Shown here: one piece after another, positions 29,505-47,214 of the stretch | Position numbering within the stretch: position 1 is the stretch's first letter | Layout of the letters: every line of letters starts with the position of its first letter | NCBI RefSeq assembly: GCF_014931565.1 | Contig: NZ_CP063353.1 | Location: 558,001 to 622,000, forward strand | DNA length: 64,000 nucleotides | Source of the DNA: Clostridium sp. 'deep sea' | GTDB lineage: Bacteria > Bacillota > UBA994 > PWPR01 | Direction of reading: 5' to 3' | The notes under the pieces: generated by a model | Database searches by the model: none | What the model saw: the letters and a program-made list of their open reading frames with translations, nothing else | Told to the model about the DNA's origin: nothing | Program-made: the position numbers and the translations under genes

Positions 29505-29990
29505 GGCTGGTCTTGTGCCAGCCTAAATCTTTCAATCAACGAAAAGTTATATTTATAAACCTGTAGTTATAGAAATTACTATAACTCATTCTTAGTGTTC
29601 TTGTTGGTAAAAAAAATCTTTTATTCTTATTATTTTTAAAGTAAATCTACTCTTTAAACAGGAGGACATTAAGCCCTCCACTACGTTAAACATTACTGCT
29701 TTGTAGTGACTGCTCTGCCAGTACAATAGAAGTACAAAGTTGTAGAACAATTATTATTAAAATGAGTTTTACTTTACAAATATGCTTTAAAGTGTTTGAT
29801 AAACGATTGCTATATTGCGGGTTGATATGGAATCAACCCCTACATTGCGATAGTTGTTAACATTTACTCTTTACTCTTTTCTTCGTGTTCTTGGTGCTCT
29901 TTGTGGTTTAAAAAATCTTTTAATCTTTTATTTCTCAAAGTAAATCTACTATCAAAGAAGGAGGACATTAAGCCCTCCACTACGGTAAAA
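29505..29990. repeat. Cluster of REP-like hairpins in a 970-bp non-coding region
   Basis: Five hairpins of one style: 29514-29532 (reverse orientation, after TTGTAGT), 29661-29679, 29702-29723 (weak, reverse), 29819-29839 and 29960-29978. Forward copies end in CACTACG or CCCTACA. About 110 bp around the second and fifth (29591-29699 and 29881-29998) are direct repeats of each other. No protein gene is credible between 29058 and 30027; 29058-29500 holds only scattered weak palindromes. Confidence 0.65.
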
Positions 29991-44595: not shown

Positions 44596-44616
44596 ACTCG
44601 TTAATTAATTCTAAAA

Positions 44617-44652
44617 AATGGGATTTGAACTGTTGCTAGTTCGAATCCCATT
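44617..44652. terminator. Hairpin after yitT
   Basis: AATGGGATTTGAAC (44617-44630) and GTTCGAATCCCATT (44639-44652) pair at 13 of 14 positions. The A run to the left gives a T run on the minus strand, and CTATATTT follows on the plus strand, so it could stop transcription either way. One arm resembles a tRNA T-arm, but no tRNA surrounds it. A second weaker hairpin lies at 44683-44709. Confidence 0.5.
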
Positions 44653-44780
44653 CTATATTTACTGTAAAACTAATTGGCATAAGAAAAGTTCCACATAAAA
44701 ATGTAGAACTTGTTTAATCTATTTGTTTTGAAGTTTAATCCCATCTTATTATCTAATTAAGAGCAAACAGACACGGTTTT

Positions 44781-44906
44781 TTAGTCGTTACCAGGGAAAA
44801 AAACCCAACATCTAATATCACATACCCCTAAAAACTTGGGTGGAAGCAAATCACCACAATCCCAAAATCCACACACTTTTTTGCTAGAGTTGATTAAGTA
44901 TTTCAT
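44781..44906 (-). CDS. Possible 41-residue Cys/Trp-containing micropeptide
   Basis: The frame begins MKYLINSSKKVCGFWDCGD and contains four cysteines, LLPPK and a C-terminal CWVFFPGND. GGAGG six bases before the ATG is one of the best ribosome sites in this region, which is the main support. No family is recognised. A second small frame at 46044-46157 shares a C-x(3-4)-C-x-D-x-x-P-P-K pattern. It lies downstream of a phosphotransferase gene on the same strand. It could be a peptide signal, a modified peptide or a metal-binding microprotein; it may also be chance. Confidence 0.45.
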   Translation of the reverse strand: MKYLINSSKKVCGFWDCGDLLPPKFLGVCDIRCWVFFPGND

Positions 44907-45042
44907 AATACACCTCCATATAGGATATTTAGGTATATAGTTATTTATACACCTATTATCATACTACAGTAGTTGTTATTATTTGTATAGTATATTATAG
45001 GAATATAATCCATATTATTGAAATGATTATTTTACTTATGGC

Positions 45043-45783
45043 TTACTGCTCATTGGGGCACTCCCCTTTACGAGTAAAACGTATTACTTCTAAAAAATCA
45101 GCTATTTCTGCTCTCTTTATATTCATTTTTGCCAAATATAAATCTGGCAGTTCATTTTGTATCTTTATAAACTGTTCTTTATTTTCTACATATACTGGAA
45201 CAGGTGTGTATTGTACTAAAAAAACTGTTCTTGCAACATCGTACAAATAATGTCCATAACAAATATTCATAAAATCAATTACAATAGCTCGTGCATCATT
45301 AATTAAAATATTACCGGGGTGAAAATCACCATGACAAAGTGAATTACCACTAGGCAGTTCAGCTATTAATTGCATAACATTTTCTTTTTCCTGTGGTTTT
45401 AGGGTGGAGTGTTTTATATTATTATTTAAAAATTCTTTGTAACACAAAATCTTATTATTATTAATTTTATTCGTTAGTATTAATTTATGTAAATCTGCCA
45501 TATACTTAGCACAACTTTTTATATCACCTGTTTTAAAAACTTGCTCTAATAATGAAATGCCCTTTACTTTGTCATAAACTATGCCATATCGGCCGTTATA
45601 GTTAATTATTTCATAGGATTTAGGTTTGTTAAATTGCATATTATTTATAACACTAGAGTTAAGAAATTCTTTTTTAACTGATTCTTGGGGATAACCTTCA
45701 ACAAAAAGTTTTAACACCTTATTATCTTGCCATTCATACACAGTAGCTGTATTTCCTACTCCAATTACTTTTAGGTCATTCAT
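45043..45783 (-). CDS. APH-type phosphotransferase
   Basis: A 246-residue kinase-like protein of the aminoglycoside phosphotransferase/choline kinase fold. The N-terminal lobe has VIGVGNTATVYEW with a following VLKLF lysine. The catalytic loop is CHGDFHPGNILI (about 153-164), and the metal-binding Asp is in VIDFMNICYG. The substrate is unknown: a drug, a sugar or a small metabolite. AAGGAG precedes the ATG. Possible micropeptide genes lie on both sides on the same strand. Confidence 0.82.
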   Translation of the reverse strand: MNDLKVIGVGNTATVYEWQDNKVLKLFVEGYPQESVKKEFLNSSVINNMQFNKPKSYEIINYNGRYGIVYDKVKGISLLEQVFKTGDIKSCAKYMADLHKLILTNKINNNKILCYKEFLNNNIKHSTLKPQEKENVMQLIAELPSGNSLCHGDFHPGNILINDARAIVIDFMNICYGHYLYDVARTVFLVQYTPVPVYVENKEQFIKIQNELPDLYLAKMNIKRAEIADFLEVIRFTRKGECPNEQ

Positions 45784-46043
45784 CTTTTTCTCCTTAAATT
45801 TTATGATTTACTTAAAATATAATGAAGTTATGTAATGCTATACTAAATATAACATAAATCAGTTATATATTAACCAAAAAATTTAATTTGATCATGTCCA
45901 CGTGTAGATTTCTTTATTTTAAGTTTTTTACTATTTTGCTTAACTCTCAATATCATAAACATACCATAGGTAATACATAAAATAGGCAATAAATTAGCTC
46001 AAATAAGTACTAATTTACTGCCAATTTTAAAAGGTTGAAGTTC

Positions 46044-46157
46044 TTATTCTGATTCATCTGGATCTTTCGGTTTTTTGGGGGGCATAAAATCTGGACAATT
46101 AAACATACAATAAGGCACTGCATTTTTACAATTAACTAAAAAATATATTTTTATCAC
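46044..46157 (-). CDS. Possible 37-residue Cys-containing micropeptide
   Basis: The frame has a hydrophobic start (IKIYFLVNC), then CMFNCPDFMPPK and an acidic tail KDPDESE. The GTG start at 46157 lacks a well-spaced ribosome site: GAGGGTGAT covers the start itself, so the exact start is uncertain. The PDFMPPK part resembles GDLLPPK in the frame at 44781-44906. It lies 78 bp downstream of the AraC-type gene and upstream of the phosphotransferase. Confidence 0.3.
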   Translation of the reverse strand: MIKIYFLVNCKNAVPYCMFNCPDFMPPKKPKDPDESE

Positions 46158-46235
46158 CCTCTTTTTAATTACCTGCTTTTATACTTATGAAGTAAATAAA
46201 AGTTTATGCATATTTTTTGCTCTGTAACAACATCT

Positions 46236-47075
46236 TTATAACACAGGTATCCACAGCTCACTATCTATTTCATGATTAGGTGGATAATAACATTCTACAC
46301 ACGGGCAGTTTGCTAAATTATATTGAGAATATGGTAGCCATTCACTATATACTCTCTGCCATGCTTCAGGTACATTTGAAAATACTGCCCATTTATTCGC
46401 AGGTAGGATAAGGTTCTCTAAGTCGTAGTTAACTTTACCATTGTACCTAATACCTATAAAATAATTAAATTCTTCATCTGTAATACTCGCTATCTTGCCA
46501 CAAACACCAAGAAGATTAATTAATCCATCATTTTTCTCGCTTTGTAAACCTATACTAATTAACTCATCTACTAAGCCATTTTCATGTGCCTGTTGCCAAA
46601 GCTTTGGTATTGTTTGAAATGCATCCTTTGTTATCACCTTAAAGGACTTGCCTATTATTTTTTGATTTGGTAGTTTTTCAATCTTGTATAGCATTTCTGT
46701 TACCCCTTTTATAGTTATTTGAAAGGATATTTTAGGATATGCCTTTAGCTTTATTCCTTTGTTTCTTGCTAATGAAGGATTTACACCATGAGCTTTATAA
46801 AAGGCTCTTGTGAACGAATCTGCAGAGCTATAGCCATATTTAATTGCTATATCTAACACACGAAGATTAGTATGTTGTAAATCGAAAGCAGCTTTAGTAA
46901 GCCGCCTTCGCCTTATGTATTCCGAAATATTAATACTTGTTAAGGCTGAGAACAGACGCGAAAAATGGTATTCAGAGCTTAAAGCCTTTTTCGCAATTTG
47001 CTGGTAATTAATTACACCCTCTAGGTTATCCTCTACATACTCTATCGCTGTATTCATTCGTTGAATCAAATCCAT
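46236..47075 (-). CDS. AraC-type regulator with GyrI-like ligand domain
   Basis: A 279-residue regulator. The N-terminal AraC domain (about 8-105) includes EYHFSRLFSALT and YGYSSADSFTRAFYKAHG. The C-terminal domain (about 120-279) is of the GyrI-like effector type and ends in a DSELWIPV strand. It probably senses a small hydrophobic or cationic compound. It is the third such regulator in the window. No transporter is adjacent, so its target is unclear; the small reading frames and phosphotransferase downstream are candidates. Confidence 0.88.
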   Translation of the reverse strand: MDLIQRMNTAIEYVEDNLEGVINYQQIAKKALSSEYHFSRLFSALTSINISEYIRRRRLTKAAFDLQHTNLRVLDIAIKYGYSSADSFTRAFYKAHGVNPSLARNKGIKLKAYPKISFQITIKGVTEMLYKIEKLPNQKIIGKSFKVITKDAFQTIPKLWQQAHENGLVDELISIGLQSEKNDGLINLLGVCGKIASITDEEFNYFIGIRYNGKVNYDLENLILPANKWAVFSNVPEAWQRVYSEWLPYSQYNLANCPCVECYYPPNHEIDSELWIPVL

Positions 47076-47164
47076 AATAACACCCCTTTCCCCTATAAAG
47101 TTATCAGAAAATTTTTAATGAGGTACGATATTTACTGCCCCAAAAAGTAGTGTTGTATAATTCA

Positions 47165-47196
47165 CAAAAAAAAGCTTACCCGTAACGGGCAAGCTT
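47165..47196 (-). terminator. Terminator of the mcm-mmd-pduL operon
   Basis: On the minus strand AAGCTTGCCCG / CGGGTAAGCTT with loop TTA is followed by eight T residues. It lies about 18 bp after the pduL stop. Confidence 0.9.
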
Positions 47197-47214
47197 TCTC
47201 TTTATAACTAGTTT

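Follow-up and report, generated by a model that had tools for sequence, protein, structure and literature searches.

Two small Cys-containing frames lie on either side of a kinase gene in a stretch of 64,000 nucleotides from the chromosome of Clostridium sp. 'deep sea', the window analysed here, and they raise the question of whether both encode precursors of modified peptides and which enzymes could act on them. The original prediction had described the frames, here called P1 and P2, as possibly one family of small modified peptides associated with the neighbouring APH and AraC genes. In our analysis, the family reading gained from a leader shared with peptides encoded next to radical SAM enzymes elsewhere in the genome, while the association with the neighbouring genes was not supported. 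We consider it rather likely that P1 is an orphan RiPP precursor, for a Cys peptide modified by a radical SAM/SPASM enzyme, and that P2 is a second one, probably decaying or weakly started. Our confidence goes no further because a short leader, seen in a single genome, carries the argument.

Two small frames in a species-specific block

The features of the locus are listed below in window coordinates.

44596..47214, no strand assigned: species-specific block of ~2.6 kb between YitT and PduL, missing at this place in the two nearest relatives
44686..44711, minus strand: hairpin terminator downstream of P1 with an 11-bp stem
44781..44906, minus strand: P1, a Cys-containing ORF of 41 aa and candidate orphan RiPP precursor, with leader MKYLIN and core C12-X3-D16, C17-X-D19, C29-D30
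44911..44917, minus strand: P1 ribosome-binding site GGAGGTG, 4 nt upstream of the ATG
44994..45022, minus strand: putative weak P1 promoter TTCAAT-17-TATAAT, seen by eye only and under the scan threshold
45043..45783, minus strand: APH-family kinase between P2 and P1 (PF01636, E 6.5e-15)
45985..46022, minus strand: strong hairpin soon after the P2 stop (z -5.5)
46044..46157, minus strand: P2 frame of 37 aa as in the ORF list, with a GTG start at 46157; a start at the ATA at 46148 gives MYFLVNCKNAVPYCMFNCPDFMPPKKPKDPDESE
46146..46148, minus strand: ATA codon in place of the expected ATG of a leader-bearing precursor, a lost or non-canonical start
46153..46162, minus strand: P2 ribosome site AGAGGGTGAT, overlapping the listed GTG
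46236..47075, minus strand: regulator with AraC HTH and GyrI-like domains, upstream of P2 (E 1.1e-17 and 2.1e-19)

Both frames were recovered on the minus strand where the original prediction had placed them, P1 with the GGAGG site that it had called excellent. P1 reads MKYLINSSKKVCGFWDCGDLLPPKFLGVCDIRCWVFFPGND, with 41 codons, four Cys and an ATG at 44906-44904. For a gene, its codon usage scores low, at -1.4 where the mean is 6.9 (sd 4.8), which counts against the precursor reading; low codon-usage scores are common among small precursors. The AlphaFold model of P1 was also poor (pLDDT 60).

Read from the GTG at 46157, P2 is MIKIYFLVNCKNAVPYCMFNCPDFMPPKKPKDPDESE, with the three Cys described earlier. 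It had been thought to be without a clear ribosome site, and for the listed GTG, which the site overlaps, this stands. The same site is, however, well spaced for the ATA at 46148-46146, the only start for which its spacing is right, and the resulting peptide begins MYFLVNCKNAVPY. The start codon of P2 thus appears to have been lost, and it is doubtful whether P2 works as a gene, since the start best placed for its ribosome site is an ATA. Past a TAA and a TGA in the P2 frame, the stretch 45870-46043 (minus strand) resembles a membrane segment with a basic tail, a length reached in 161 of 1000 shuffles.

The domain matches agree with the APH and AraC/GyrI genes proposed on the same strand; the nearest NCBIfam model to the APH gene, TIGR02172, lies far under its cut-off. 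The order of the block is YitT-[P1-APH-P2-AraC/GyrI]-PduL. In the two nearest relatives, one of the same genus and one of the same family, YitT and PduL are adjacent, with only a short intergenic stretch between them.

Likeness of the two peptides and searches for homologues

The motif C-x-D-[LF]-[LM]-P-P-K, proposed as common to both frames, was confirmed in P1 and P2. A narrow DNA pattern for it occurs twice in the window and in none of 100 shuffles, although the pattern was picked after the fact. The looser form C-x-D-x-x-P-P-K occurs four times in the entire 3.83-Mb genome, P1 and P2 among them; a third match is antisense to a mutase-like gene, and the fourth presumably belongs to RapZ.

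Aligned with each other, P1 and P2 score 42 with the GTG start, a value reached by 19 of 20,000 shuffles, and 45 with the ATA start (3 of 20,000). They form the top non-repeat pair among the window's 1,619 pairs of non-genic small ORFs. Among 4,449 neighbouring same-strand pairs that share no DNA words, taken from the sampled genome outside the window, 13 score at least 42, and several of these are real paralogues. A window is thus expected to hold about 0.1-0.2 such pairs, which makes the likeness by itself suggestive, not conclusive. Aligned as DNA, the regions of P1 and P2 did not rise above shuffles. The highest-scoring small-ORF pair of the window (29592-29980, minus strand; MFYN...VEGLMSSCLKSRFTLK and MEGLMSSFFDSRFTLR) lies in diverged direct-repeat DNA.

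Homologues were sought with P1, P2, the P1-P2 alignment and the P2 read-through as queries, against targets that included relatives, the phylum, viral contigs, species genomes, plasmids, phages and the PDB. Neither P1 nor P2 had a detectable homologue in 60 relatives, 398 genomes of the phylum, viral contigs or 84,980 species genomes, and none was found for P1 in the plasmids or phages searched. The top matches, on inspection, were chance frames, and the PDB likewise gave chance matches only. Pfam, NCBIfam and PHROGs gave no match to either peptide, and Rfam nothing credible. The lack of a match between either peptide and any NCBIfam precursor model was counted against the precursor reading. 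The TIGR04333 family model matched neither peptide, nor anything else in the genome at E<=1, and across the 398 genomes it returned background only, none above the cut-off. The original prediction had named the lack of a conserved frame among relatives as a ground for rejecting it. To the letter, this is what was found, because the region is missing in the relatives, not broken.

A leader shared with maturase-adjacent precursors

A background set of small ORFs preceded by ribosome sites brought to light a Cys peptide at 547,337 and, with it, a maturase cluster on the same chromosome (544956-555107), which ends 2.9 kb upstream of the window start. This cluster encodes Cys precursors and Clo7bot-like radical SAM/SPASM maturases, three of each, together with an ABC exporter and two further proteins (360 and 322 aa) that have neither an annotation nor an NCBIfam match. 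The precursors are MKFIVKPKPVNKDYEPWCPTFCPCRWPNRMV (547337), MLFLVNTKKAKERQYCCDPYARFCEFVN (551648) and MRFIFNASENADTECTRYCEYLYCDDKAFLCVPKVCRPLLKAM (553582), each followed by a maturase gene, and all three have the layout of P1: a ribosome site, a short Cys ORF and a hairpin. The maturases, at 547-555 kb and thus ~48 kb from P1 and P2, are mutually 50-56% identical and best match TIGR04334 (E 5e-100, 3e-111 and 7e-106), all under the strict cut-off of the model. The maturase structure model was of low quality beyond the core and uninformative for the N-terminus. No maturase was found in the window itself, which counts against the precursor reading and leaves P1 and P2 without an adjacent enzyme; a maturase gene adjacent to the precursor is usual, not universal. 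A second, different RiPP-like locus was observed at ~3060.5-3065.5 kb, where MKYKTPSLISIEEISRGCSGGNCCNGKP... and MKYNVPRIKSLEEVSRGCGAGDCCNGKP... surround one radical SAM protein. It also holds a 300-aa ORF with radical-SAM/SPASM-like Cys motifs and no Pfam match, as well as ABC transporter genes. At ~355.0-355.9 kb lie three small ORFs in tandem, nearly identical and ending ...SMYTSPSILATYPENQYNGSKEIGGDWGLWSKSSP, which may be an array of repeated peptides.

The precursors at 551648 and 553582 begin MLFLVN and MRFIFN, P1 begins MKYLIN, and P2 read from the ATA begins MYFLVN. The leader M-x-[FY]-[LI]-[hydrophobic]-N is thus common to P1, P2 and two of the three cluster precursors. P1 and P2 look like stray precursors because this is the short leader of peptides encoded next to radical SAM enzymes. 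Among 1,804 SD-preceded ORFs of at least 20 aa in 1.64 Mb of the same genome, M-x-aromatic-hydrophobic-hydrophobic-N with a standard start was found in four: P1, 551648, 553582 and a Cys-less 25-aa ORF, which is a chance match. P2 fits the pattern only through its ATA start. In ungapped comparison of residues 2-11, P1 against 553582 scores 19 and P2 against 551648 scores 25, and none of 1,801 background starts is as high in either case; P1 against 551648 scores 17, equalled by one of the 1,801. With a broader leader that also admits Clo7bot-like and D/E-P variants, at least two Cys are present in 7 of 9 short SD-preceded ORFs, against 78 of 378 (p 5e-4, or 0.002 without P1). These p-values are optimistic because the patterns were drawn after the sequences had been seen.

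As a short ORF with a ribosome site, a leader and a Cys core, P1 has the makeup of the precursor class, and P2 has it only with the ATA start. Both share a leader with maturase-adjacent precursors of the same genome, a short motif defined post hoc. That the leader has only ~6 informative residues was counted against the precursor reading. Similarity over the whole peptide is weak (P1-551648 equalled in 314, P2-551648 in 74 and P1-553582 in 351 of 5000 shuffles), as expected if the leader alone is conserved.

An orphan array comparable to P1 and P2 lies between thrS and infC (~410.1-410.9 kb) and encodes three Cys peptides, MKFLLEP..., MTYLVDPSKK... and MVFLMDP..., with strong ribosome sites; no maturase was found within the 20-kb stretch around it. 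The array resembles P1 in its leader (MTYLVDPSKK vs MKYLINSSKK), ribosome sites, Cys in the C-terminal half and the lack of an adjacent maturase, but its leader carries D/E-P in place of N, and its core is K-x-C-G-V-H-T-x-x-C-P-Y. Among known systems, Clo7bot (TIGR04333) with CtpM (TIGR04334) shares with P1 and P2 short Cys peptides and an M-x-[FY]-[IL]-hydrophobic leader; related maturases are encoded in the same genome as P1 and P2. However, P1 and P2 have no TIGR04333 match, carry N where Clo7bot has K-P after the leader strand, and have few Cys, a P-P-K stretch and no adjacent maturase. Papers searched for Clo7bot or orphan precursors yielded nothing of use, and the chemistry of the Clo7bot branch was not found in them. 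The PapA/PapB (freyrasin) ranthipeptides are characterized by Cys-Xn-Asp spacings and a leader Asn (PMC9413430, PMC8326336), both of which are also present in P1 and P2. They differ in that the maturases described here fit TIGR04334 far better than the PapB model (3e-111 vs 3e-36), and in their repeated CX3D motif, which is absent here except for the sole C12-X3-D16 of P1.

Proposed route, rival readings and significance

In the proposed route, which is drawn from sequence, residues 1 to ~11 (M-x-[FY]-[LI]-hydrophobic-N...) would serve as leader and the Cys/Asp-rich remainder as core. P1 would be translated from its own ribosome site and, having its own terminator and no neighbouring maturase, would be modified, if at all, in trans, after recognition by a Clo7bot-like maturase, one of the three at 547-555 kb. 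In PapB, the related enzyme that has been studied best, the substrate is directed by its leader, of which an Asn has been proposed as needed for recognition, and Cys is joined to Asp or Glu 0-6 residues downstream (PMC9413430). The likely chemistry here would be a thioether bridge from Cys to a nearby residue such as Asp; the spacings are C12-X3-D16, C17-X1-D19 and C29-D30 in P1 and C18-X1-D20 in P2. Given the linkage made by PapB, the C-x-D of the shared motif would gain a natural meaning, as the portion that fits a Cys-Asp bridge. A putative product would probably leave through the ABC exporter of the maturase cluster, and any role for it is conjectural. Within this family precursors outnumber enzymes, and one enzyme each is not needed, as shown by a Paraclostridium plasmid that carries nine tandem precursors with one ctpM maturase.

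The main competitor of the precursor reading is chance, in which P1 is either a genuine but unrelated small orphan gene or a frame that is spurious, P2 goes untranslated, and motif and leader are coincidental. We regard this as possible, if rather unlikely. The want of homologues across all genome sets searched, the 13 near pairs that score as high without shared DNA words, the low codon score of P1 and the abnormal start of P2, around which open frames are no longer than in shuffles, are all compatible with it. It does not account well for a leader match to maturase-adjacent precursors that is unequalled by any background start, nor for the combination of ribosome site, Cys and terminator in both P1 and P2. 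Much less probable is the idea that the peptides are small functional proteins (signal, immunity or regulator) of the APH kinase or the AraC/GyrI regulator, despite their interleaved order on one strand within a single species-specific block. No P1- or P2-like frame was found beside APH in 45 APH relatives with flanks and 5 other APH loci, P1 has its own terminator, and a strong hairpin separates P2 from APH. With no such frame in these ~50 loci, and with the block missing from both of the nearest relatives, the proposed APH/AraC link is not supported; on present evidence, kinase and regulator are bystanders.

Two further identities were judged more improbable still. P1 and P2 could be eroded N-terminal zinc ribbons, with P2 starting a broken membrane protein whose frame runs through the TAA and TGA to 45873, and we hold this to be very improbable. 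KYxINxxKKV...FxxCGxxLPPK looks similar by eye, and the frame downstream of P2 is like a membrane segment with a basic tail, but zinc-ribbon profile scores were equalled by 41 (P1) and 88 (P2) of 500 shuffles, and a 102-codon frame with two stops arises in 161 of 1,000. The P2 read-through also has no Pfam or NCBIfam match. The PF13240 domain was rejected, as neither peptide showed CxxC...CxxC with an above-chance profile score, and so was a broken 92-aa membrane protein beginning with P2, which did no better than shuffles. The faintest probability of all was given to AgrD-type autoinducer precursors (thiolactone peptides), suggested by two AgrB genes in the genome and by a Cys with four residues followed by P-P-K, which is loosely AgrD-like. 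The genome's own AgrDs (MKKLFKKSLIISALTALCVLFAASSSAATLISVWDQPKIPKSLIIEE; MKFMRKHCPRYLFGITLVALSQILAYSSSWLLFNEVEPPKSLLK) adjoin AgrB and differ in appearance, whereas P1 and P2 have neither a nearby AgrB nor an amphipathic N-terminus, so that position and sequence contradict this identity and it was rejected. The two agrBD-type quorum-sensing loci (~2203.6 kb and 22.2 kb) contain ordinary AgrD-like peptides and histidine-kinase-like genes.

Should leader-tagged precursors distant from maturases prove to be true substrates, then such genomes make more peptides than are now counted, and the missing precursors would be recovered by simply searching for the leader and filtering for ribosome sites. 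P1 and a maturase make a pair of a size that allows a direct co-expression test. RiPP mining normally seeks precursors beside their enzymes. A more speculative extension, which we consider unlikely at present, is a dispersed RiPP system in which a few Clo7bot-like maturases serve scattered leader-tagged Cys precursors (P1, P2 and the thrS-infC array), with new cores, C-x-D-[LF]-[LM]-P-P-K being one example, arriving on species-specific inserts. If this were true, most products of the system would be missed by gene-cluster mining.
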